Assembly (NCBI RefSeq): GCF_028994805.1
Contig: NZ_JAJQQP010000004.1
Location: forward strand, 1-64,000
Direction: 5' to 3'
Length of the DNA: 64,000 nt
Source of the DNA: Promicromonospora iranensis
GTDB lineage: Bacteria > Actinomycetota > Actinomycetes > Actinomycetales > Cellulomonadaceae
Under the pieces are notes generated by a model. The model saw only the letters and a list, made by a program, of their open reading frames with translations. It was not told the DNA's origin and ran no database searches. The stretch's first letter is position 1. Each line of letters starts with the position of its first letter. Positions 8,914-60,994 of this stretch are shown in pieces. A program made the position numbers and the translations under genes.

Positions 8914-9795
8914 CTATCCAAAGCGCTTCGCGTCCTGGCTTGGGGCGAGTCCGAAGGCGCGCTTGTAGTCGCGACTGAATTGAGCCGGGCTTGCGTATCC
9001 GACCGCCTCTGAGACAGCAAACATGTTGCAAGACTGCAGGGCCACAAGTCGTCGCGCTTCGTGAAGTCGTAGCATTTTGTGGTATTGCGCTGGGGTCGTC
9101 CCTGTTGCATCTTTGAAGAGGCGATAGAAAGTCGCCACGCTCATCCCTGCGCGTAAAGCGAGATTCTCCACGGAGATCGGTGTATTGAGGTGGCTGTGCA
9201 TCCAGTCGGTCACCTGGCCGATTCTGGTCAGCGTCTCTTCGGCACGCACCATTTGCAGTAGCGCGTCTCCGCCCTCGCTGTTGAGTACGCGGTACAGGAT
9301 CTCTCTTTTCACGCCTTCCGCGAGGATGTGGGCGTCCGCTGGGAGTGCCATGAGCTGCACCAGTCGGAGGGTTGCCGAAAGGGCAGAAGGAGGCAGGGGG
9401 TGGACGCTTACTGGCTCTGCCCGCGCCGGTGGTCGCGCCGGCATCCGTGCGATCAGTTCGCCGAGAACTTGCCGGTCTATCGTCAATTCGACGGCGAGGT
9501 ATGGTGTCTCTTCCGTGGCTTGAGTAATTTCAACCAGCGCGGGAAGATCGACGGCCATAAGTACAATCTGCCCGCCGTGATAATCGATCTGCCGACTACC
9601 GAGGATTAGCCGTTTTGCACCCTGTAAGACGACATACAGCGTTGGGTGGAAGAGCGTGGGCACGGGGGCGACAGGTTCGCGAGTCACGTGTAGCGCCACG
9701 CCGCCTATCAGCGCGTGCTCCTCGGGACGGTTGAATGCAAGGACGACGCGCTCGCGCAATTCCGCTTCGATGGCGGCGCTATCACATGGTTCCAT
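8914..9795 (-). CDS. AraC family transcriptional regulator (AraC_N type)
   Basis: 293 residues. The N-terminal cupin-like AraC_N domain (about 25-180) has FHPTLYVVLQGAKRLILGSR and DYHGGQIVLMAVDLP. The C-terminal double helix-turn-helix (about 190-290) has the usual ENLALRAGMSVATFYRLFKD and GYASPAQFSRDYKRAFG. Such proteins activate a neighbouring enzyme gene in response to a small molecule. Codon use is clearly less G/C-rich than in neighbours, and the sequence looks like proteobacterial YqhC-like regulators, suggesting transfer. It lies downstream of a hydrolase gene on the same strand, separated by a strong hairpin. Confidence 0.85.
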   Translation of the reverse strand: MEPCDSAAIEAELRERVVLAFNRPEEHALIGGVALHVTREPVAPVPTLFHPTLYVVLQGAKRLILGSRQIDYHGGQIVLMAVDLPALVEITQATEETPYLAVELTIDRQVLGELIARMPARPPARAEPVSVHPLPPSALSATLRLVQLMALPADAHILAEGVKREILYRVLNSEGGDALLQMVRAEETLTRIGQVTDWMHSHLNTPISVENLALRAGMSVATFYRLFKDATGTTPAQYHKMLRLHEARRLVALQSCNMFAVSEAVGYASPAQFSRDYKRAFGLAPSQDAKRFG

Positions 9796-9818
9796 GTTGA
9801 CCTGCTCGGTCGCGAGGA

Positions 9819-9859
9819 AGGACGTGCCCGCCGTCGATGTCAGCCTGCGGGCACGTCCT
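9819..9859 (-). terminator. Hairpin between the hydrolase and AraC genes
   Basis: Perfect 13-bp inverted repeat AGGACGTGCCCGC (9819-9831) and GCGGGCACGTCCT (9847-9859) with a 15-base loop, placed 6 bp after the hydrolase stop. It probably ends or attenuates the hydrolase transcript and separates it from the AraC gene on the same strand. Confidence 0.7.
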
Positions 9860-9865
9860 ACCTAC

Positions 9866-10807
9866 TCACTTCATGTGGGTGTCGAACCACTCCAGGATTC
9901 GCTTCGGGTGACGCTGGAAATACTTGTAAGCATCCCACCGGGCCGTCGCGTCCTCGATCCAGAACATCTCCTTCTCCGTCGCACCGAGGGACACGTAAGC
10001 CTCCTCGAGGTCGTAGGGGCGGGTGATGGCGTCGTCATAGACGCCGTACGTCATGGTTGGCATCGTGACTGACGGCGCCCAATCGCTGACGTTCCCATCG
10101 GCGAGCGGCTTGCTTGTCAGCAGCTGGAATCGCCGATCCACCTCGTCGACGTACTCACTCAGGCCAGCACTCTCCAACGTCGCCTCCACGAACACGCGCG
10201 GAGACAGCAGAAGCGGCGCCACCAGGCACGCGACGTCGTCGAAAACGCGAGGGTCGGAGTGGATCGCCCGGAACGTCACACTGGCACCCATGCAGCGGGC
10301 AAAGATGCCTAGCGTCATGGAAGACAGATCCGATCGGGAGCGGATGTAGTTCAGAGTGCCGATCACATCACGTGTCTCGAAACGGTTGTTCGACATCCGG
10401 TTGCCGTTCGCGTCGCCGCTGAGACCGCAGTTGCGGAAGTCGAAGGCAAGCACGTTGTAGCCGGCGTCGTGAAGGACCTTGTAGTCCAGATTGAAGTCGA
10501 TCTCGGTGTCGTTCCCCGGGCCGAATGCCGACTTCCACGGCTCGATGTGGCTCGGGAAGCCATACCTGTTGAATCCGAACGCGTGCATGCAGACGATCAA
10601 CTTGGTGGAGCCCTCAGAGGGGATGAACCATCCCTCGAGTGGCACGCCGTCGGATGACGGGTACGAGACGTCCTCGTAGCCAAGGCCCTGATTCATCGGG
10701 GTCCGCAGGATGGGCGATCGGGAGGCGTACCCGAGGCCCGAGGCCAGCGACTCGATGGTGGATTCCGCTGTGGTGTCGAGGAGCCGAGTGGTGACGCTGT
10801 CAGCCAT
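9866..10807 (-). CDS. Alpha/beta hydrolase with cysteine at the nucleophile elbow
   Basis: 313 residues, full alpha/beta-hydrolase fold without a signal peptide. The oxyanion region is CMHAFGFNR near residue 73, strand YNVLAFDFRNCGLSG follows, and the nucleophile elbow is FARCMGAS with Cys172 where most esterases have Ser. A later DWAPSVTMPTMTYGVYDD segment probably supplies the acid. A Cys nucleophile is known in dienelactone hydrolases, so hydrolysis of a lactone or thioester is possible. The RBS GGAAGGGA precedes the ATG at 10807. Base composition is lower in G/C, as in the AraC neighbour, and the two were probably acquired together. Substrate unknown. Confidence 0.8.
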   Translation of the reverse strand: MADSVTTRLLDTTAESTIESLASGLGYASRSPILRTPMNQGLGYEDVSYPSSDGVPLEGWFIPSEGSTKLIVCMHAFGFNRYGFPSHIEPWKSAFGPGNDTEIDFNLDYKVLHDAGYNVLAFDFRNCGLSGDANGNRMSNNRFETRDVIGTLNYIRSRSDLSSMTLGIFARCMGASVTFRAIHSDPRVFDDVACLVAPLLLSPRVFVEATLESAGLSEYVDEVDRRFQLLTSKPLADGNVSDWAPSVTMPTMTYGVYDDAITRPYDLEEAYVSLGATEKEMFWIEDATARWDAYKYFQRHPKRILEWFDTHMK

Positions 10808-34377: not shown

Positions 34378-34511
34378 GCCTACCTCCATGTCCGTGCCCA
34401 CTACTGGGTGGAGCGAGCCATGAGGCTTCTTTATCAGAGCCGGGGCCCCGACAGAAGGGTTTGTGGTTCTGGGGTCGAGCCCTGCCGCCCAGGGTGCTAG
34501 CCTCGGCGGCG

Positions 34512-36387
<1,876 letters not shown>

Positions 36388-50985: not shown

Positions 50986-51702
50986 ATGGCAAAGCGCAGC
51001 AAGGCGTACCTCGCCGCCGCAGAGAAGATCGACAGCGACACGCTCTACGCGCCGCTGGACGCGATCCGTCTCGCGAAGGAGACCGCCACCGTCAAGTACG
51101 ACGCGACCATCGAGGTCGCGTTCCGGCTGAGCGTCGACCCGCGCAAGGCGGACCAGATGGTCCGTGGCACGGTCAACCTGCCGAACGGCACGGGTAAGAC
51201 CGCCAAGGTCATCGTGTTCGCCAACGCCGCCAAGGCGGAGGAGGCCCGCGCGGCCGGTGCCGACGAGGTCGGTGGCGACGAGCTGATCGAGAAGGTGGCC
51301 GCCGGCTACACCGACTTCGACGCGGCCGTCGCCACGCCGGACCTCATGGGCAAGGTCGGTCGCCTCGGTAAGGTGCTGGGCCCCCGCGGTCTCATGCCGA
51401 ACCCGAAGACCGGCACCGTGACGATGGACGTGACCAAGGCTGTCACCGACATCAAGGGCGGAAAGATCGAGTTCCGCGTCGACAAGCACGCGAACCTCCA
51501 CTTCATCATCGGCAAGGCCTCCTTCTCGGAGGTCCAGCTGCTGGAGAACTACGCGGCCGCGCTCGACGAGGTCCTGCGCCTCAAGCCGTCGTCCTCGAAG
51601 GGTCGCTACATCAGCAAGGCGACCATGACCACGACGATGGGCCCCGGCATCCCGCTGGACCAGAGCAAGACCACCAAGCTCCTGGAAGACGTCTCGGCCT
51701 GA
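50986..51702 (+). CDS. rplA: 50S ribosomal protein L1
   Basis: 238 residues from ATG 50986, preceded by AAGGAGAGAG; in-frame codons further upstream belong to the leader. Conserved: [32 protein letters not shown], and the end [20 protein letters not shown]. It is a stalk protein of the large subunit, and in other bacteria it represses its own operon. Ends in a classic terminator, so this operon is closed before the inserted cassette. Confidence 0.98.
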
Positions 51703-51724
51703 ACCGAGCGCTCCTGAGCGCGAG

Positions 51725-51760
51725 AAGGCCCGCATCCCGACCAGGGATGCGGGCCTTTTT
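51725..51760 (+). terminator. Intrinsic terminator after rplA
   Basis: AAGGCCCGCATCCC (51725-51738), a 5-base loop, then GGGATGCGGGCCTT (51744-51757) running into a T-tract. A textbook rho-independent terminator. It isolates the sigma/CHAT cassette from the ribosomal operon. Confidence 0.95.
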
Positions 51761-51857
51761 GATTTGAGTTCAGCACTATGTATCGAACCTGGTGTTCGCC
51801 CCTCTTGTCTGATGAGCGGCATCGTGCCGACGCGCGTCGAGGAGAGGGGAGTGCCTG

Positions 51858-52610
51858 ATGGGCACAGTCTTCTACCTCCCCGGATCCGCGGTGTCGGCCG
51901 TAGACTCGGCTGGTCCAAGTGGTTCACGTCCGGTTCCGGACGTGGAAACATCCGCCAGCAGAGAATCCCGTGGTGCAATGACAGGATCAAGGGAGGCCCT
52001 GCCCGACGTCGACGGGCCCGGGCTGACGCTCGGCGATCGCGCTGCGATCGCCTTGACCGAGTACCGCGAGGGCAACCACCAGGCACTAGGTGAACTGGTG
52101 CGCGAGGCGACGCCGCTGCTCTGGCACACGGTCCGCGCGCAGGGCGTCGATCACGACGCCGCCGAGGACGTGGTGCAGAGCACCTGGGTGGCCCTCGTAC
52201 GTCACGCCGACTCGATCGCAGAGCCCAAGGCTGTGCTGAAGTGGCTCCTGGTGACGGCGAAGCGCGCCGCGTGGGAAGCCGTGCGCAAGCACCGTGACGA
52301 CGAGAAGCGCCGCACGGAGCTCCCGGACGACAGCCCGGAGCACCCGATGGCCCTTCCTGCGAAGGATCCGCTGCCGGACGACGAGGTGCTGCGCGAGGAA
52401 CGCGACCGCATCCTGTGGATGTCGCTCCAGAAACTTCCCGGACGCTGCCAAGAGCTGCTGCGTCTGGTTTCGCTCGCCGACCGGCCGGACTACCGGTACA
52501 TCTCGGCGGCGATCGGAATGCCGATGGGCTCCATCGGCTCAACTCGTGGACGCTGCTTGGCGAAGCTGCGCACCATCCTCGACGAGCAGGGGGACTTCTC
52601 GTGGGCCTGA
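51858..52610 (+). CDS. ECF-type RNA polymerase sigma factor of the CHAT cassette
   Basis: 250 residues from ATG 51858, chosen for its RBS (GAGGAGAGGGGAG upstream); an ATG at 51978 is the alternative and would give 210 residues. Sigma region 2: NHQALGELVREATPLLWHTV then DAAEDVVQSTWVALVRHADS. Region 4: PGRCQELLRLVSLADRPDYR then YISAAIGMPMGSIGSTRGRC. No regulatory extension. It opens the cassette, overlapping the next gene by 10 bp, so it probably drives this operon and other targets, held in check by a neighbouring protein. Confidence 0.9.
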   Translation: MGTVFYLPGSAVSAVDSAGPSGSRPVPDVETSASRESRGAMTGSREALPDVDGPGLTLGDRAAIALTEYREGNHQALGELVREATPLLWHTVRAQGVDHDAAEDVVQSTWVALVRHADSIAEPKAVLKWLLVTAKRAAWEAVRKHRDDEKRRTELPDDSPEHPMALPAKDPLPDDEVLREERDRILWMSLQKLPGRCQELLRLVSLADRPDYRYISAAIGMPMGSIGSTRGRCLAKLRTILDEQGDFSWA

Positions 52611-53161
52611 CGCCGGAACCGAACAAGGACGAAGAGGTCGTGGGGGACCTCTCGTTCGACCCGAAGGGCATGCTCGACGCCGACGACGGGGCCGTGCTGA
52701 CCCGTCTTGCCCAGCTGGTCGATGCGGTGGACCCGGTGCCGAGCGATCTCGTCGAGCGGTCGCTGTTCGCGATCACACTGGCCGGCCTGGAGGCCGACCT
52801 GATGGAGGCGGCCTACCTCGACGCGCCGCTCGCCGGCGTCCGGGGGGCTGCCGCAGCAGCGCGCGCTGACGACACCGCGCCCGCCGAGGCAAAGACCATC
52901 ACCTTCACGCACGACTCGCTGACCGTCATGATCAGCCTGTCCCCGTCCACCGGTGGCCGGGTACGGATCGACGGCTGGGCCGCTCCGGCGGCCGGGCTGG
53001 ACGTGGAGCTGCACCGACCGGGTGCCGACGTCGTCACGGTCGCCTCCGACGAGGACGGCCGGTTCTCGTTCGACTCCGTCGAGCGAGGCCGCGCGAGCCT
53101 GGTGGTGCGCCGCACCGATGGCGGTGGTGGTGCCGTGAGCACGCCGGTCATCGAACTTTGA
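52601..53161 (+). CDS. Small cytosolic protein with carboxypeptidase-regulatory-like C-terminus
   Basis: 186 residues from GTG 52601, overlapping the sigma stop. The N-terminal helical part contains VDAVDPVPSDLVERSLFAIT then LAGLEADLMEAAY, and the C-terminal 90 residues form an Ig/CarboxypepD_reg-like beta sandwich (AAPAAGLDVELHRPGADVVT, then SDEDGRFSFDSVERG). No signal peptide or membrane helix. By position it could be an anti-sigma factor or adapter for the sigma factor, but no zinc anti-sigma motif is present. I do not recognise the family exactly. Confidence 0.7.
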   Translation: MGLTPEPNKDEEVVGDLSFDPKGMLDADDGAVLTRLAQLVDAVDPVPSDLVERSLFAITLAGLEADLMEAAYLDAPLAGVRGAAAAARADDTAPAEAKTITFTHDSLTVMISLSPSTGGRVRIDGWAAPAAGLDVELHRPGADVVTVASDEDGRFSFDSVERGRASLVVRRTDGGGGAVSTPVIEL

Positions 53162-53245
53162 ATTTCTGACCTGTTGGATACCTGACCCGGCTGTGGGGGC
53201 GCGGCGGGGTGAGCCGAGTGCGCCTATCGATGGAGAGGTACTGCT

Positions 53246-54799
53246 GTGAGTGAGCCCATGCCCGAGTCCGAGCTGCAGGTCAGAGACCACGGCGGCACCT
53301 GGTGCCGTGTGCGGGACCTCGATCCTGCACGGGTCTCTTCCCGTCGCCAGGGTCGGCTGATGCCTACGCGTTACGTCGCGGACCGATTGATCGTACGGGC
53401 GGTGGCTGACGTCGAGAGTGACACCGTGGTGGGTATGGTTCGCGAACGCGCGGCAGCACGTGGGTTGGAACTGGAAGAGACCGCTTTCGAGGAAGCGGCG
53501 TCACGTGCAGCGGCGTCCGGTGCCCCCGGGGCACGGCCAGGGCTTGCGTTCCGGATCTTGGCGGGGGAGCAGAGCACGACCCATGGGGATGTATGGGATC
53601 TCCTGGACGAGGTGGCGGACGCAGTCGAAGGTGAGGACCGGCGTCGAGTGTCGCTGGACCACGTGCTGACCGGACACGGAAAGTGGCAGGGACATGGGCG
53701 CCCCGTCGGTCGTGAACCAGCCGTCTTCCTGGGGCCGGCCCCACGGCGCGCGCTCGCGGGCGGAGCCTCGCCTTTGACGGCTGCGGACGGGACGGTTCGA
53801 CCCGTCGTCGCAGTTCTCGACTCCGGAATCGGCACTCACCCTTGGTTCGACGAGGCTACGTCCGTTGTCCTGCGCGGAGCGACGCTCGACGGGGAGCCGA
53901 TCGGTACGGGCGCTGAGGACGAGCCGTTGTATGACGCTGAGGTACGCGGCCGACGTCGTGATGACGTCGCGTACCTCGACACCTATGCGGGGCACGGAAC
54001 GTTCATCGCCGGTGTCGTGCACCAGGTCTGTCCCGACGCGGCGATCATGCCGGTACGAATCTTCGGGGGCGACGGGCGTGTGCGGGAATGGGACCTCGCA
54101 CGCACGCTGGAGAAGCTTCTGGAGTTCCACCTGCGCGGGGTTGCAGGGGCAGCGGGGTACTGGCCGGTCGACGTCGTGGTGCTTAGCGGCGGTTTCTATG
54201 CGGAACGGCCGGAGGACGATGAGGACTACGAGGGTGTGCTGCGCGGACGTCTGCGCGACCTGCGCCGGGTCGGAGTACTTGTCGTGGTATCCGCGGGGAA
54301 CGACGGTTCGACCAGGCCGATCTTCCCTGCAGCGTGGGCGCCCCGAGTCCGGCGCACGCCGGATGGCGCTATCCCGCTCAGTGATGCGGACCTGTGCTCG
54401 GACTACACACCGTTGCTCCCCGTTACGGGAGACAATCCGGACGGCACACTGGCTGACTTCAGTAACGACGGTCCTTGGGTGATCGCGGCACGTCCTGGTG
54501 CACACGTGCTGAGCTCCATGCCCACCACCTTCGACGGTGCTGAGCTTCCTTGGCAGAGCGGGGACGGGCTGCGGCGCACGGTCGATCCGGACAACTTCAG
54601 CAGTGGATTTGGCCTGTGGAGCGGCACCTCGTTCGCCGCGCCGGTCCTGGCCGGTGAACTCGCTGCTGCCCTCTTGCAGGGGCGGGTTCCGGGCTCGTCC
54701 GCGGTGCCCGAGCCCGGTACCGACTCACGTGTTGCGGCGGCCTGGCATGCTGTCACGAGAGTGGGCGACCTTTACACCGAGGCGCCTACACCTGCCTGA
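53246..54799 (+). CDS. Cytosolic S8 (subtilisin-like) serine protease
   Basis: 517 residues from GTG 53246. The catalytic triad is complete: Asp192 in VAVLDSGIGTHP, His250 in GHGTFIAGVV and Ser462 in SGTSFAAPVLAGEL; the oxyanion Asn is in VVVSAGNDGS. It has no signal peptide and no typical inhibitor prodomain; the first 185 residues are a separate domain of unknown role. So it acts inside the cell. It stands between the sigma/adapter pair and two CHAT proteases, suggesting a proteolytic relay. Base composition is visibly less G/C-rich than in neighbouring housekeeping genes. Confidence 0.9.
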   Translation: MSEPMPESELQVRDHGGTWCRVRDLDPARVSSRRQGRLMPTRYVADRLIVRAVADVESDTVVGMVRERAAARGLELEETAFEEAASRAAASGAPGARPGLAFRILAGEQSTTHGDVWDLLDEVADAVEGEDRRRVSLDHVLTGHGKWQGHGRPVGREPAVFLGPAPRRALAGGASPLTAADGTVRPVVAVLDSGIGTHPWFDEATSVVLRGATLDGEPIGTGAEDEPLYDAEVRGRRRDDVAYLDTYAGHGTFIAGVVHQVCPDAAIMPVRIFGGDGRVREWDLARTLEKLLEFHLRGVAGAAGYWPVDVVVLSGGFYAERPEDDEDYEGVLRGRLRDLRRVGVLVVVSAGNDGSTRPIFPAAWAPRVRRTPDGAIPLSDADLCSDYTPLLPVTGDNPDGTLADFSNDGPWVIAARPGAHVLSSMPTTFDGAELPWQSGDGLRRTVDPDNFSSGFGLWSGTSFAAPVLAGELAAALLQGRVPGSSAVPEPGTDSRVAAAWHAVTRVGDLYTEAPTPA

Positions 54800-54825
54800 C
54801 TATTTGCTGAGTATGGTGGTGCCGC

Positions 54826-57423
54826 ATGAGCCGAGTGGACTGGGGCGAGCTCGAGCAGCGCTATACCGACGCTCGGACCCTGAACGACCAGTACCAGCCG
54901 GTTGATGCTCTGGCCGCTTTCCGTGCTCTTGTCACAGATCTCGGTAAGGCAGAGCCACGTTCGGAACGTGCGACCGAGCAACGTTCTCGGCTCATGGTCC
55001 GATCCCACCTCGGTCTCGCCCTGGCGACATACGAGTCCTCGATGGACGGTGCAGCCACGGCCTCGGCGCTGGATCGGGCAGCCGCCGAGGCCGAGGCGGC
55101 GCCTGAATCGATTCGTCGGGGACTCGTCGGACTTGTCTCCGGGCAGCGCGGCGTCGTTCTCCTGCGCAGCGGCCAGTTCGCCGAGAGCCTTGCTCACATC
55201 TCCGCATCGCTGGCCGCGCATGACCCGGACGATCTGCGCAGTCGTGCGATCGACCATCTCAACCGCGGCTTCGCGCTGATGCAGGTCGGGCGGATCGCTG
55301 AGGCGCTCAAGGACCATGAAGCGGCGCACCAGCACGCCGAGGCCGACGGCAACACCCGTACCCAGTCGTTTGCACTCCACAACATCGGCTACGTTCGCCA
55401 CCTGATGGGCGACCTCCCCGGTGCGCTGATGGCGATGGAGAAGGCGCTCGAAGTACTTCCGGACGAGAGCACAGCGATCGACATGCTCGGCCGTGCCGAG
55501 GCCCTCTTTGAGGGAGGGCTGGTGGCCGCAGCGGACGAGCTGCTCACCGAGGCGATCCCTCAGCTCAAAGCCTCGCGGCTTCGTCCCGAACTTGCGGAGG
55601 CTGAGTACTATCGTGCCCGCTGCCTCCTCATCCTGCTCCGTTTTGACGACGCTCAGACACTCGCTGCTCACTCTCGCCGGCACTTTGAGGCTGTCGGCCA
55701 TGTTCCGCGAGCAGTGTTGTCTCGAGTGCTCGAGTTGGATGCTGCGTTGGCCGCAGGCCGACGTAGTGACCGACTCACTCGTGCTAGTGCGCGCCGTCGG
55801 GCGGCACAAGCCCTGGCCACCGTGGTCGAAGGAGATGCCGCCGGCCCGGTCCTCGGGCAGCACCCGGGTCATGCCGCTCGCCTGGTGGCCGCGCAGTGGC
55901 TTGTTATTGCTGGGGACCTCGACGCAGCTCGGGGCACGCTGCAGGAACTGCCTCGCGGTATGAAGAGCGCCCCGCTGACCATGCGTGTCCAGCATTACAC
56001 CGTTCAGGCCGAACTCGCGTTCGCGGAGGGAAACCGGGCGCGCGGCCTCCGTGCAGTCCGGCGGGGCGCGAGGTTGCTCGCGGACCATCGGAGCCGTCTC
56101 GGCTCGGTCGAATCAGTCACTGCGGCAGCTGCTCACGGGGAGGACCTGACCCGAGTTGACGTCGAGACGGCAGTCGCGACGGGCCGTCCGGCTGCCATAT
56201 TCGATGCACTGGAGCGCGGCCGTGCCACATTCGCCGGCGCTGGGCGTGTCACTCCGCCAGAGGACCCGGAGGCGGCCGCACTACTGACCGAGGCTCGTGG
56301 CCTACTCGCGAAGGCGCGTGAGCTCGAGACGACCGAGGCGAAGGAGCGGGAACGGCTGACGCACCGTGCGCGCCGCATTCAGGACCGGGTCAGGGAGCGG
56401 TCATGGCGGCACGCGGGAAACGGAGGCGTGGTCCAGAGCCCGGTCACGGCGCGGGAGATGCATCGCGTTCTGGAAGAGCGCGATGGCGATCCGGTGGTGG
56501 CGAACTTCGTCAGCATCGGTGGCCGTCTTCGTTGTGTGCGCGTTGATTCCCAGGGCGTGAAGACCATCGAAATAGGCCCCGTGAAGGACGTGACCGAGCG
56601 GATTCGCCGCCTCGGCGCGGACTTCGCCATGGCCGCCAACGACCTCATCCCGGCACCCCTGCGAGGAGCGGCCAATGCTTCTCTGGTTCGCAACCTCAAG
56701 ATCCTCGATGACCTCCTCCTCGGCAGCCTCCGCGCCGACGGCGACCTCTACGTCGTTGCCCGCGCCCCCCTGCTCAGCGTCCCCTGGACAGCACTCCCCT
56801 CCCGCAGCGGCCTCCGCACCGCCGTCAACTCGTACGTCGCCCGGGGCCGTACCCACGCCCGCCCCAGCGGCAAGCGCCGACTCCTGGCCGCGGCCGGCCC
56901 TGGCGTGAAGCACGGCACCGAGGAGGCGCACGCCGTCGGCCGCCAGTGGCCGGGCGCAACCGTGCTGACCGGGGAGCACGCCGTCACCGAGCACGTCCGC
57001 ACCGCCCTCGCCACGCACGACGTCGTGCACCTCGCTACCCACGGCCAGCACGACGCCGACAACCCCCTCTTCGCGAGCATCGACCTCGCTGACGGCCCGC
57101 TGTTCGCCCACGAACTCGACGGGACACCGCTGCCGGGGTCGGTGGTGATCCTGTCGTCGTGCGAGGTCGGCGGTTCCACCCAGGTGCTCGGTGGGGAGGT
57201 CCTGGGCCTCACCTCTGTGCTCTTGCGCCTCGGCGCGCGCGCGGTCATCGCGTCGGTCGCCAAGCTCTCCGACGAGCTGGCCGCCCGTGTCATGCCGCGC
57301 CTCCACGCCCACCTGCGGGAGTCCGACGACCCGGAGGCTGCGCTCGCGGCAGCCCTTAAGGACGTCGCGGAGCCGGTGCCGCTCGTCTGCTTCAGCTCGG
57401 TCGAAGGTCTCGCCACCGCGTGA
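54826..57423 (+). CDS. TPR-CHAT caspase-like protease, copy 1
   Basis: 865 residues from ATG 54826, 26 bp after the S8 gene. The N-terminal 450 residues are helical TPR-like repeats (RSRAIDHLNRGFALMQVGRI, FALHNIGYVRHLMGDLPGAL). The C-terminal CHAT domain has the dyad His739 in VHLATHGQHDADNPL and Cys779 in VVILSSCEVGGS, followed by GGEVLGLTSVLLRLGARAVI. CHAT domains are caspase/separase-like and often act after TPR-mediated sensing. Coding before about 56690 is less G/C-rich than after it, so the gene may be chimeric. It is a paralogue of the next gene. Confidence 0.93.
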   Translation: MSRVDWGELEQRYTDARTLNDQYQPVDALAAFRALVTDLGKAEPRSERATEQRSRLMVRSHLGLALATYESSMDGAATASALDRAAAEAEAAPESIRRGLVGLVSGQRGVVLLRSGQFAESLAHISASLAAHDPDDLRSRAIDHLNRGFALMQVGRIAEALKDHEAAHQHAEADGNTRTQSFALHNIGYVRHLMGDLPGALMAMEKALEVLPDESTAIDMLGRAEALFEGGLVAAADELLTEAIPQLKASRLRPELAEAEYYRARCLLILLRFDDAQTLAAHSRRHFEAVGHVPRAVLSRVLELDAALAAGRRSDRLTRASARRRAAQALATVVEGDAAGPVLGQHPGHAARLVAAQWLVIAGDLDAARGTLQELPRGMKSAPLTMRVQHYTVQAELAFAEGNRARGLRAVRRGARLLADHRSRLGSVESVTAAAAHGEDLTRVDVETAVATGRPAAIFDALERGRATFAGAGRVTPPEDPEAAALLTEARGLLAKARELETTEAKERERLTHRARRIQDRVRERSWRHAGNGGVVQSPVTAREMHRVLEERDGDPVVANFVSIGGRLRCVRVDSQGVKTIEIGPVKDVTERIRRLGADFAMAANDLIPAPLRGAANASLVRNLKILDDLLLGSLRADGDLYVVARAPLLSVPWTALPSRSGLRTAVNSYVARGRTHARPSGKRRLLAAAGPGVKHGTEEAHAVGRQWPGATVLTGEHAVTEHVRTALATHDVVHLATHGQHDADNPLFASIDLADGPLFAHELDGTPLPGSVVILSSCEVGGSTQVLGGEVLGLTSVLLRLGARAVIASVAKLSDELAARVMPRLHAHLRESDDPEAALAAALKDVAEPVPLVCFSSVEGLATA

Positions 57424-57577
57424 CTTGAACGGGCGAATCACGATCATCGCCGCCGCCTTCGCCCGGCCCGAGCCCGTGACCTGCGACATCGGAAGGGGCG
57501 GTGACATAAGGCCGCGCACCCCGCTAGCGTGTCCCGCCTGACGCCCGCGACGGCGTGGAAATGGCAATGGGGGCGAC

Positions 57578-60175
57578 ATGTGGCCGGAACTTGAGGCGGA
57601 GCTGCTGGCCGCGCGGGAGCTCAACTCCCGTTCGCGGCCGGGCGATGCTCTGCCATTGTTCCGGCAGGTGCTCGACCGGCTCCGGGCCATGGACCTCACC
57701 GACCTCGAGCCCACTGACCACGAGCGCTGGACCGAGGGCATGGTCCGTTCCCTGGCGGGCGAGGCAGTCTCCGTCCAGGCCGTCGAGGACACGCTCGACA
57801 AGCCGCTGGCACTCCTCGAGGACGCCGATGCCCGCACCGAGACCGCGACGCCGGCGGTCCAGGCCCGTCTCGTCGCCGTCGTCGACGGGACGCGTGGACT
57901 GCTGCTCCAGCGCGCGGGCCGGCAGCTCGACGCCATGGCCGCCTTCGACAGGGTGCTCGCGGACTCGGCGCTGCTCCCCGCGCGAGACCTCGCGGCGGCG
58001 CTGCTCAACCGGGGCGCGACCGCCATCGAGCTGGGCCGGCTCGACGCGGCGCTCCGGGACTTCGACGTCTGCCACGACAAGGCGATGCGCGCCGGCCTGT
58101 CCGCCGTCGCCTCCCTCGCCCTGCACAACACCGGGTTCGTGCGTTACGCGCTCGGCGACCTGCCGGGGGCACTGCGGGCCATGGCTGCGGCCCGCGCCGT
58201 CGACCCGGAGCGGGACGACGGCCTCCTGGAGATCGGGCGCGGCGCCGTCCTCTACGAGGCGGGGCTGCTGGAGGACGCCGAGCGCGTGCTCACCCAGGCC
58301 ATCTCGCGCATGACCGGTCCGGGTCGGGCGCCGCACCGTGCCGAGGCCGAGTACTTCCGTGCGCGCTGTCTCATGGCTCTGCACCGGTGGGACGAGGCCC
58401 GTGTCAGTGCGGCCGTCGCTCGGCGGCACTACGCCGGGGTGGGCCACCCGCAGCGGGCGGCGGTCGCACACGTCGCGGAGCTGGAGGCGATCCTCCTGCC
58501 GATCCGGCGTGGCGAGGCGCCCGTACCGGACGACGCACGTCACCGCGCCGAGCAGGCACTCGAGGCCGCGGAGGCCGGCGACGAGGTCGACCCGCTCCTC
58601 GGGCAGCACCCCGGCCTGGCCGCGCGCTTCGTCGCCGCGCAGTGGTACGTCCTGGCCGACGACGTCGCAGCCGCCCGTGCCGTCCTCGACAACCTCCCGG
58701 ACCGCGTGGCCGACGCCCCACTGAGCACCCGGATCCAGCAGCAGACCGTGCTCGCCCAGATCGCGTTCGCGTCGGGGGACCGGGACAAGGGCATCGCCGC
58801 CGTGCGTGCCGGACTGAGCCTGCTCGCCGACCACCGCGTGGGCCTCGGCTCGGTGGAGTCCGTGACGGCCGCCGCGGCGCACGGGGTCGACCTCCAGCGC
58901 ACCGACGTCGAGGCCGCCGTCCGGACGGGCCGACCCGATGCCTTGTTCGAGGCGCTCGAACGCGGCCGCGCCACGTTCGCGGGAGTGGGCGGCGCGGCCG
59001 CGCCGGACGACCCCGCCGTGCGGGCGCTCGTCACGGAGGCCCGCGGTCTCGTCGTCCGGGCCCGCACCCTCACGGACCAGGAGAGCGCCCCCGAGCGTGC
59101 GTACCTGTTCGAGCGCTCCGGCAGGCTCCTGGCTACGGCCCGCGAGCGTGCCTGGCACCGCACGGGCGCCGACGAGGCCGCGGCCGAGGAACGCCCCGCT
59201 ACCGTCGCGGAGGTGCGTGCTCTTCTCTCCGCCCGCGACGACGGAGCCGTGGTCGCCAACTTCCTGGTGATCGACGGCGTCCTGCGGTGCGTCCGCCTCG
59301 ACGCGAACGGCGAGCGAATCGTGGACCTGGGCACCCGGGCCGACGTCGCCGAGCGGGCCCTGCGTGCCCGCGCCGACCTCGGGGTGTGCGCCAACGACCT
59401 CGTGCCCGCGGCGCTGCGCTCTGTCGCCCGGCGCTCCCTGACCCGCAACCTCCGCGCACTCGACGAGCTCCTCGCCGTACCTCTGGCGGCCGACGGCCCG
59501 CTGTACGTCATCGGCCGGGACCCGCTGGTCGGGGTGCCGTGGACCGCGCTCCCGTCCCGGCGGGGCAAGCGCACCACCATGCGCTCCTACGCGGCGCGCG
59601 GCCGGGCACACCCGTGGCCGGGGGAGGGACACCGGCTCCTTGCCGCCCATGGACCCGGCGTGACACTCGGTGCGGGCGAGGTGCAGGCCGTGGGCACGGT
59701 GTGGCCCGGCGCGACGGTCCTGACCGGCTCCGCCGCCACGACGACGGCCGTGCGCGAGGCGCTCGCCACGCACGACATCGTGCACCTGGCGACCCACGGC
59801 AGGCACGACGCCGACAACCCGCTCTTCGCCTCCATCGACCTGGCCGACGGCCCCCTGTTCGCGCACGAGCTGGACGGCACCCGGCTGCCCGGCTCGGTCG
59901 TGATCCTGTCGGCGTGCGAGGTCGGCGGCTCGTCCCAGGTGGTCGGCGGGGAGGTCCTGGGCCTGACATCGGTCCTCCTGCGCCTCGGCGCCCGCGCCGT
60001 CGTCGCGGCGGTCGCCCCGCTGTCCGACGCCGTCGCCGCCCGCGTGATGCCACGCTTCCACGCCCACCTCCGCGCGACCGACGACCCGGAGGCGGCGCTC
60101 GCCGCAGCGCTCGCGGACGAGCCGGAGCCGGCGCCGCTGGTGTGCTTCGGTTCCCTGGAGGGCCTGCACCGCTGA
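57578..60175 (+). CDS. TPR-CHAT caspase-like protease, copy 2
   Basis: 865 residues, exactly the length of copy 1, in tandem after a 154-bp gap. TPR-like N-terminus (AAALLNRGATAIELGRLDAA, LHNTGFVRYALGDLPGALRA). The CHAT dyad is His740 in VHLATHGRHDADNPL and Cys780 in VVILSACEVGGS. The last 120 residues are nearly the same as in copy 1, while the TPR half is diverged; this suggests a shared substrate or mechanism but different sensors. Uniformly high G/C. The last gene of the cassette; it is followed by the L10 leader of the rplJ operon. Confidence 0.93.
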   Translation: MWPELEAELLAARELNSRSRPGDALPLFRQVLDRLRAMDLTDLEPTDHERWTEGMVRSLAGEAVSVQAVEDTLDKPLALLEDADARTETATPAVQARLVAVVDGTRGLLLQRAGRQLDAMAAFDRVLADSALLPARDLAAALLNRGATAIELGRLDAALRDFDVCHDKAMRAGLSAVASLALHNTGFVRYALGDLPGALRAMAAARAVDPERDDGLLEIGRGAVLYEAGLLEDAERVLTQAISRMTGPGRAPHRAEAEYFRARCLMALHRWDEARVSAAVARRHYAGVGHPQRAAVAHVAELEAILLPIRRGEAPVPDDARHRAEQALEAAEAGDEVDPLLGQHPGLAARFVAAQWYVLADDVAAARAVLDNLPDRVADAPLSTRIQQQTVLAQIAFASGDRDKGIAAVRAGLSLLADHRVGLGSVESVTAAAAHGVDLQRTDVEAAVRTGRPDALFEALERGRATFAGVGGAAAPDDPAVRALVTEARGLVVRARTLTDQESAPERAYLFERSGRLLATARERAWHRTGADEAAAEERPATVAEVRALLSARDDGAVVANFLVIDGVLRCVRLDANGERIVDLGTRADVAERALRARADLGVCANDLVPAALRSVARRSLTRNLRALDELLAVPLAADGPLYVIGRDPLVGVPWTALPSRRGKRTTMRSYAARGRAHPWPGEGHRLLAAHGPGVTLGAGEVQAVGTVWPGATVLTGSAATTTAVREALATHDIVHLATHGRHDADNPLFASIDLADGPLFAHELDGTRLPGSVVILSACEVGGSSQVVGGEVLGLTSVLLRLGARAVVAAVAPLSDAVAARVMPRFHAHLRATDDPEAALAAALADEPEPAPLVCFGSLEGLHR

Positions 60176-60230
60176 CAGCGGGTGTGGCGCGGGCCACGCC
60201 CGCCCGTGCAGCAGCACCCGCATGGCCATG

Positions 60231-60364
60231 TATGATTCTCAGGTAACCCAAGACCGCCGGTTGTTGGACGCTGCCCTCTTGCAGGGCAGAAGAAGACCGA
60301 AGTCCCGCTGAGAGCGGGGGCCTGCGCAGGTGACGAACTCGAGTGCGGCCCTGCCGCGCAAACC
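60231..60364 (+). promoter_or_regulatory. rplJ promoter and ribosomal L10 leader
   Basis: A TATGAT -10 hexamer at 60231 is followed by a structured leader with AGGTAACCCAAGACCGCCGG, a CTGCCCTCTTGCAGGGCAG hairpin and GTCCCGCTGAGAGCGGGGGC. This is the usual actinobacterial L10 leader upstream of rplJ-rplL, where L10(L12)4 binding represses its own synthesis. It separates rplJ from the inserted cassette, so rplJL have their own promoter. Confidence 0.8.
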
Positions 60365-60402
60365 GAGCCCCGTGCGCCTGCGCCGGGGCTCTTTCTCATT
60401 TT
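60365..60402 (+). terminator. Attenuator hairpin in the rplJ leader
   Basis: GAGCCCC (60365-60371) pairs with GGGGCTC (60385-60391), followed by TTTCTCATTTT. An intrinsic terminator placed before the rplJ start, so leader folding can attenuate transcription. Confidence 0.8.
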
Positions 60403-60463
60403 CCGGGGCACGCCCGGGGCGTATGCCCCAGGGGACGGTGGTACCACCACCGGAAGGATTGCC

Positions 60464-60994
60464 ATGGCGAGGCCGGACAAGGCAGCCGCAGTCGCAGAGA
60501 TCGCGGGCAAGCTCCGCGACTCCAACGCGGCCGTGCTGACCGAGTACCGCGGGCTCACCGTCGCGCAGCTCAAGGAGCTGCGGCGGTCGCTCAGCGGCAA
60601 CGCAACCTACGCCGTGGTGAAGAACACGCTGACGGGGATCGCGGCCAAGGAGGCCGGTGTCGAGGGTCTCGACGCCGACCTGAAGGGCCCGTCCGCCATC
60701 GCATTCGTGACCGGGGACCCGGTCACGGCTGCGAAGGGTCTGCGTGACTTCGCCAAGGCGAACCCTGCTCTGGTCATCAAGGGTGGCGTGCTCGACGGCC
60801 GCCCGATGTCCGCTGCAGAGATCACGAAGCTCGCGGACCTCGAGTCCCGCGAGGTTCTGCTGGCCAAGGTGGCCGGCGGTCTGAAGGCCACGCTGACGCG
60901 TGCTGCTTACGCCTTCAGCGCCAAGCCCGCCCAGGTCGCCCGCGTTATCGATGCCCTGCGTCAGAAGCAGGAGTCGGAGGGCGCTGCCGCCTGA
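60464..60994 (+). CDS. rplJ: 50S ribosomal protein L10
   Basis: 176 residues, usual length. Start [20 protein letters not shown], then [20 protein letters not shown] and [18 protein letters not shown]. The C-terminal helix that binds L7/L12 dimers is present. It forms the base of the ribosomal stalk and with L12 represses its own operon by binding the leader. Confidence 0.98.

Follow-up and report, generated by a model that had tools for sequence, protein, structure and literature searches.

A candidate ECF54-type proteolytic switch with an exchangeable protease and sensor block in Promicromonospora

What might a sigma factor, a small protein and 3 putative proteases accomplish together when their genes are lined up between 2 ribosomal protein genes? 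The question is raised by a cassette of 5 genes at positions 51858 to 60175 of a 64,000 nucleotide stretch of Promicromonospora iranensis (assembly GCF_028994805.1, contig NZ_JAJQQP010000004.1, positions 1 to 64,000 of the forward strand), here called the window. The cassette contains genes for a sigma factor of the extracytoplasmic function (ECF) type (51858 to 52610), a small protein of 186 amino acids with a GTG start, here called adp (52601 to 53161, its 5′ end overlapping the sigma stop codon), a subtilisin-type protease of the S8 family (53246 to 54799), and 2 proteins of 865 amino acids each, CHAT-A (54826 to 57423) and CHAT-B (57578 to 60175), in which tetratricopeptide repeats (TPR) are combined with a CHAT domain. 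All 5 open reading frames (ORFs) were found on the forward strand exactly where an initial annotation of the window had placed them. Our reading, which is tentative and draws on analogy, is that the cassette encodes an autoregulated proteolytic switch of the ECF54 type with an exchangeable S8/TPR recognition module, working like the Csx29-Csx30-sigma system.

The hypervariable block

The window was compared with the closest genome (G012) in segments of 300 bases from 50 to 61.7 kb. The nucleotide identity was 92% to 99% outside of a hypervariable allelic block, except for 88% in one segment at its 3′ edge, whereas values of 49% to 78% were obtained within the block. The final segment was also low, which we ascribe to an end effect since BLAST gave 97.8% identity there. 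The block extends over approximately positions 53300 to 56650 of the forward strand and covers the S8 gene and the TPR half of the CHAT-A gene. The CHAT domain of CHAT-A, which starts at about residue 640, is constant, and CHAT-B evolves with the flanks. Synonymous differences per site between the window and locus L152 were 0.05 for the sigma gene and 0.13 for adp, 0.60 to 0.63 for S8 and 0.67 to 0.69 for the TPR half of CHAT-A (TPR-A), and 0.19 for the CHAT domain of CHAT-A and 0.16 to 0.23 for CHAT-B.

The 2 parts of the block have diverged together. Among 12 Promicromonospora genomes (locus L163, in which CHAT-B is rearranged, was left out of the distance and tree tests), the distances for S8 and TPR-A were correlated with r = 0.96 (Mantel p 0.0001), genome pairs in this and the following distance comparisons not being independent of each other. 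By contrast, S8 gave 0.005 with the N-terminal part of adp and 0.12 with the TPR half of CHAT-B (TPR-B), and TPR-A gave 0.08 when compared with the CHAT domain of the same protein. In approximately unbiased (AU) tests with 5000 resamplings, a number flagged by the program as few, the flank tree was rejected by the S8 and TPR-A data, with log-likelihood losses of 1143 and 1014, and the S8 and TPR-A trees were rejected by the flank data, with losses of 877 and 850. The TPR-A data did not reject the S8 tree (p 0.08).

Three allele groups are apparent in the genus. In the S8 tree, the group formed by L155, L159, L160, and L162 joined Myceligenerans with a support of 99. Monophyly of Promicromonospora was rejected for S8 (p 0.0014), and the combined sigma and adp data rejected that alternative grouping.

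In a second genus (g48), 47 loci were read, 40 of them as separate regions and 7 added from another set, and the order sigma-adp-S8-CHAT was seen at 44 of them. One locus without S8 was left out of the distances; for the other 46, S8 and TPR distances were correlated with r = 0.87. The distances for the CHAT domain gave −0.01 to 0.02 with those for S8 and the N-terminal TPR part, and 0.32 with those for the middle TPR part. The sigma factors were at least 90% identical in 59 pairs, of which 45 had S8 identities below 65%, and the N-terminal TPR identity was likewise below 65% in all 45. At the nucleotide level, sharp block edges were again seen between L169 and L172, while no block was seen for the pairs L187/L196 and L189/L191. 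In a third genus (g41), the sigma and adp genes are located between the S8 and CHAT genes, and no separate exchange was observed (correlations of 0.89 to 0.98). The swap is thus seen where S8 adjoins CHAT. In these sequence comparisons, S8 and the sensor half of its partner protease differ between related species as a single exchanged block while the rest remains constant, a pattern that suggests a self-amplifying recognition switch, with recognition possibly residing in the block.

It could be argued that the block is neutral and results from frequent homologous recombination between conserved flanks, and that the cassette is a housekeeping ECF54 stress switch in which S8 and CHAT degrade the sigma factor or adp under abiotic stress. 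The absence of block exchange in g41, where S8 and CHAT are not adjacent, fits this explanation, as do the fixed position of the cassette between ribosomal genes within the genus, the near lack of matches in plasmids and phages, and the proteolytic control proposed for ECF54 (PMC8999054). Neutral recombination, however, would not be expected to halt at the border of the CHAT domain and spare the sigma, adp, and CHAT-B genes. Synonymous differences per site between the window and L152 are 0.60 to 0.69 inside the block versus 0.05 to 0.23 elsewhere, and the same pattern has recurred in a second genus. We consider a neutral block in a stress switch somewhat unlikely.

The small protein, the motif, and a possible mechanism

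The sigma protein matched TIGR02937 (sigma70-ECF) with 64.3 bits against a cut-off of 42.9 (E 9.8e-18), the S8 protein matched Peptidase_S8 (E 4.9e-17), and the CHAT domains likewise exceeded their Pfam cut-off, with TPRs matched as well. These family assignments in the initial annotation could thus be retained, whereas the carboxypeptidase-regulatory-like C-terminus that it had given to adp scored below threshold (CarboxypepD_reg, 24.5 bits, cut-off 32.3), although the same domain was matched in 21 of 22 adp relatives at E up to 1. The active-site residues compared, which were Asp192, His250, Asn352, and Ser462 in S8, His739 and Cys779 in CHAT-A, and Cys780 in CHAT-B, were invariant in 12 of 12 sequences from the genus (L163 left out). 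Inspection by eye revealed no hydrophobic signal peptide in S8.

We propose that adp, a near-constant partner of the sigma factor, is a soluble anti-sigma factor and a target for proteolysis. In the AlphaFold2 model (m960f62517877; 10 sequences), which had a mean predicted local distance difference test (pLDDT) score of 64.7, 2 low-confidence helices and a stretch with pLDDT below 50 at residues 65 to 94 precede a better modelled β-sandwich from residue 98. The codon for Arg81 (52841 to 52843, forward strand) falls in the low-scoring stretch. All 131 distinct sequences had Arg at this position, with Val before it in 107 and Gly, Ser, or Ala after it in 124, whereas the linker C-terminal to it was not conserved. 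Cleavage after Arg is common among clan CD proteases, and Arg81 could be a cleavage site in a linker that is predicted to be disordered; alternatively, it may have a structural or binding role. A comparison of adp with PDB sequences gave nothing solid (best E 0.09), and the fold search returned generic β-sandwich matches, the best of which was CBM56 (E 8.5e-4). At L127, the first part of an apparently frameshifted sigma gene is in frame with adp (9769 to 10761); a natural fusion of the 2 proteins was rejected because of the frameshift in the sigma ORF.

A candidate autoregulated ECF promoter, TGTATC-N16-CCTCT, was identified on the forward strand at positions 51779 to 51805, ending 52 bases before the sigma start. 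Exactly one exact match was found in the 5.84-Mb genome, namely this one, 5′ of the sigma gene. The 13 genomes of the genus contained 14 exact matches; 12 genomes each had one before this operon, and the other 2 matches were located elsewhere, while the reversed pattern gave 6. The thirteenth genome (G003, L155) has one additional base in the spacer and was therefore missed by the exact search. A looser version was present 5′ of sigma at 77 of 125 loci, compared with 2.4% of random windows; the 125 loci include at least 2 duplicates (L040/L043 and L099/L174), and L043 was left out of A1. In g41, where S8 comes first in the operon, all 10 loci had the motif at the start of S8 and none had it 5′ of sigma, although in L205 it lies 130 nt past the called start of the S8 ORF. 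The motif thus moves with the head of the operon. ECF sigma factors that drive their own operon are common.

The initial annotation had also suggested that the sigma factor reprograms transcription. A wide regulon was rejected, since sites with one mismatch elsewhere in the genome numbered only 10 against 26 for the reversed-pattern control. It had further placed a terminator before the cassette and a separate promoter after it. The terminator is there, an intrinsic one with an 18-pair stem after rplA (51721 to 51761, forward strand), and was kept in most of the 13 aligned sequences from the genus and degraded in L158. The promoter found no support in a sigma-70 scan of positions 51600 to 60600, which gave 0 matches with 0.3 expected, other promoter types being outside the scan.

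Assembled into a switch, these elements might operate as follows. In the off state, the N-terminal helices of adp would hold the sigma factor. A signal dependent on S8, be it a product of the protease, its variable N-terminal region, or direct cutting, would be sensed by CHAT-A through its TPR half. This half and S8 would form a specificity pair, which would account for their variation and exchange as one block. CHAT would then cut adp after Arg81, by which the helices would be parted from the β-sandwich and the sigma factor freed to transcribe from TGTATC-N16-CCTCT, to which it presumably binds. More S8, CHAT-A, and CHAT-B would be produced, and since the exact motif occurs only before its own operon, the output would mainly be positive feedback, with the sigma factor serving mostly as an amplifier. 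The protease cascade envisaged in the initial annotation thereby keeps its conserved module, its intact active sites, its sigma output, and a plausible target in adp, but loses its wide reprogramming and, as discussed below, the novelty of its composition.

Gene order and distribution

The same five-gene order, which the initial annotation had proposed to look for in related genomes, was kept between rplA and rplJ in all 12 other Promicromonospora genomes, with CHAT-B rearranged in one of them (L163), so that the cassette occupies one fixed site in 13 of 13 genomes. The flanking genes rplA (50986 to 51702, inside a longer ORF) and rplJ (60464 to 60994, an ORF), both on the forward strand, were 94% to 100% and 89% to 98% identical, respectively, across the 12 other genomes. 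The CHAT-A and CHAT-B genes in L163 (G009) look recombined, the CHAT-A domain being 91% identical and CHAT-B present only as fragments. Nine loci found by means of S8 in named genomes all had the order sigma-adp-S8-CHAT before rplJ, with one CHAT gene, 2, or recombined copies (L035); rplA was seen at 8 of them, and L038 begins at a contig end. Loci L033 to L036 and L040 represent the same genomes as G011, G012, G009, G002, and G014.

Among 20 regions from other relatives, a codirectional sigma-adp-CHAT unit was located between rplA and rplJ in 10, and S8 was identified in 7 of these units. The region for L045 starts at rplA and ends before rplJ. At L060, where the genes are likewise placed between rplA and rplJ, CHAT has the direction of the ribosomal genes, but S8, sigma, and adp have the opposite one. 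Across the wider sample, such units were mostly found at other sites and with other gene orders.

The adp profile matched in 72 of 394 genomes of the class and in 32 of 396 genomes of the phylum. The class sample contained 84 adp places, of which 60 were read (E up to 9.9e-8), 4 were in genomes already read, and the 20 weakest were left out. In the 59 adp loci that were compared (L127 was left out, and some contigs end early), the sigma gene adjoined adp in 57, and a CHAT gene was found in 39, an S8 gene in 38, and both in 36. The orders varied, and the near-constant pair was sigma-adp. CHAT was present in 70 of the 72 adp-positive and in 141 of the 322 adp-negative genomes of the class (Fisher test, relatedness ignored), and the 2 adp-positive genomes without CHAT were those with the weakest adp matches.

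Independent scattering of the genes was named in the initial annotation as a possible refutation, and it was seen in part. In genus g91 of family f38, the sigma-adp pair has neither CHAT nor S8 nearby, and S8 and CHAT are found at a second locus. All 12 adp-positive genomes of g91 in the sample nevertheless have a CHAT gene, which is oriented head-to-head with S8 in 11, while the contig ends in the twelfth. More than one S8 match was seen beside CHAT in 5 loci of f38 (L249, L251, L255, L257, and L258), as if by tandem duplication. Among distant members of the phylum, 3 adp matches were located within 10 kb (G865:C77:29406-39398) and 2 in another region (G633:C7:20242-26886).

When 72,556 plasmid records were searched by tblastn with an E-value limit of 1e-5, adp was found in a single one, an 11.85-Mb record of Nonomuraea gerenzanensis that is filed as a plasmid (NZ_LT559118.1). 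A relative of CHAT-B was found in 1 of 50,697 phage records, an unannotated 7.5-kb contig labeled "Bacteriophage sp." (MT838002.1, 3256 to 4470; 33% identity over 47% of the query). With so few matches, a mobile defence element is disfavoured.

These distributions also bear on the idea that the cassette is an antiviral or cell-death module, in which the TPR halves or S8 would recognize phage proteins, the amplified proteases would kill the cell, and the variable block would reflect an arms race. The TPR-CHAT protein Csx29 acts in type III-E CRISPR (PMC10028731), a fungal gasdermin is activated by a CHAT protease that carries TPRs (PMC12881547), diversity is concentrated in S8 and the TPR parts, and the presence of adp in g48 is patchy (47 of 99 genomes). 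Yet a single fixed site throughout the genus is unlike typical defence islands, PADLOC gave only weak and partial matches (to BovA with E 5e-5 and 4e-4, and to a subtilase with 4e-5), and neither a gasdermin nor a nuclease was named among the 5 proteins in general scans, which included no dedicated gasdermin search. We consider such a module unlikely. Elsewhere in the window, a thiamine pyrophosphate (TPP) riboswitch was identified at positions 34509 to 34614 (Rfam RF00059, 62.6 bits).

Relation to known systems and weight of the evidence

The initial annotation knew of no described system with exactly this composition. The composition is, however, already known, since the available text of a 2022 review (PMC8999054) lists carboxypeptidase-, subtilase-, and CHAT-domain proteins in the context of group ECF54, with Geodermatophilus amargosae as an example and Huang 2015 and Casas-Pastor 2021 as sources for the group. 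Proteolytic control is proposed there, and experimental proof is named in that text only for AntA, of another group. The cassette shares with ECF54 the ECF-type sigma factor and the 3 kinds of neighbours, and its assignment to the group is by context. Beyond that listing are adp as a near-constant sigma partner with an invariant Arg in its linker, a motif that follows the operon head, and, in the window, twin CHAT genes and the exchangeable block. We found no account of a CHAT system whose S8/TPR block is exchangeable in the portions of the open-licence literature available to us.

As a model of how the cassette might work, we used the type III-E CASP system, in which Csx29 cuts Csx30, an inhibitor of CASP-sigma, according to the accessible text of PMC10028731. 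In both cases, one locus encodes an ECF sigma factor, a TPR-CHAT protease, and an additional protein, whereas the S8 protease is found here on top of these. The Csx29 model, which has a cut-off of 300 bits, gave scores of 16.1 and 17.3, and general profile scans named no CRISPR protein among the 5 proteins, the genome not having been searched for Cas7-11 or an array. In the EACC2-caspase systems, a protease of the caspase superfamily is accompanied by genes for an ECF sigma factor and a TPR protein, and an autoproteolytic switch has been proposed for them (PMC8195603, as far as available); S8 and adp are found here instead, and EACC2, TRADD-N, and DUF1822 were not named for the 5 proteins in general scans, without a dedicated search. 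Diversified sensor parts in conflict-type proteins are shared with the putative antigen sensors of multicellular bacteria, for which CHAT is among the annotated target domains (PMC10907252, in part), but these are diversified by mutation through diversity-generating retroelements and the cassette by exchange of a two-gene block.

A similar shape is found in agr, in which the hypervariable region spans agrB, agrD, and agrC and is combined with positive feedback (PMC10482373, in part). Both have a hypervariable protease and sensor part and a constant output part, here seen between species, although the protein families differ, the proteins look cytosolic, and no kinase domain was found among the 5 proteins. 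Kin or self recognition, with S8 and TPR-A as matched specificity alleles and a mismatch after fusion, conjugation, or uptake firing the switch, would fit this shape, the role of the subtilisin-like protease HET-Q2 in fungal allorecognition (available text of PMC12881547), and S8 allele groups that are 55% to 59% identical, about as distant from each other as from the S8 of other genera (53% to 67%, among the pairs listed), but is distinctly improbable given that the sample holds one genome per species, that no contact route is evident, and that the gaps on either side of S8 have no room for a separate ORF of at least 20 amino acids that could be an agrD-like gene. The stress-switch, antiviral, and self-recognition readings are set apart by the trigger that each assumes.

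Several observations weigh against the ECF54-type switch with an exchangeable recognition module. For adp, the helices that would hold the sigma factor are modelled with low confidence, no anti-sigma domain was recognized in Pfam or NCBIfam searches, and ECF54 is described without an anti-sigma factor in the available text of PMC8999054. Regarding the S8-TPR pairing, the TPR-A tree is marginally rejected by the S8 data (AU p 0.025), TPR-A and TPR-B distances are weakly correlated (0.23, p 0.04; 12 genomes), and in g48 the S8 and adp distances are correlated as well (0.26, p 0.0005), 4 of the 59 close pairs have a conserved S8 with a divergent TPR part, and in pairs of this kind, such as L177/L185, S8 is kept at 82% to 95% with TPR at 63% to 65%. 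Simple linkage may be the cause of the cosegregation, since all parts evolve together in g41, where the partial S8-TPR correlation is a weak 0.43 (Mantel p 0.011, 10 genomes). S8 was undetected in the remaining 3 of the 10 units between rplA and rplJ (L050, L052, and L053), although the sigma, adp, and CHAT genes are present. Finally, the motif was not seen 5′ of sigma at 48 of the 125 loci, including the 10 of g41, and in f38 none was found before the separate S8-CHAT pair, with one match located inside an S8 ORF.

A bolder version of the switch is that the cassette is a cytosolic protease-based recognition locus, with S8/TPR specificity groups exchanged across species and genera, in which a match or mismatch would cause CHAT to cut a soluble anti-sigma factor at a universal Arg and release a sigma factor that has its own operon as its only promoter. 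We hold this to be rather improbable. The ECF54 group has so far been known from its genomic neighbourhood, and its control by proteolysis is a proposal (PMC8999054, available text); to this are now added one candidate cleavage bond, one candidate promoter, and swappable alleles. If the bolder version is true, caspase-like and subtilisin proteases would make up a bacterial switch for allorecognition or for an intracellular signal, in parallel to agr and to fungal incompatibility.

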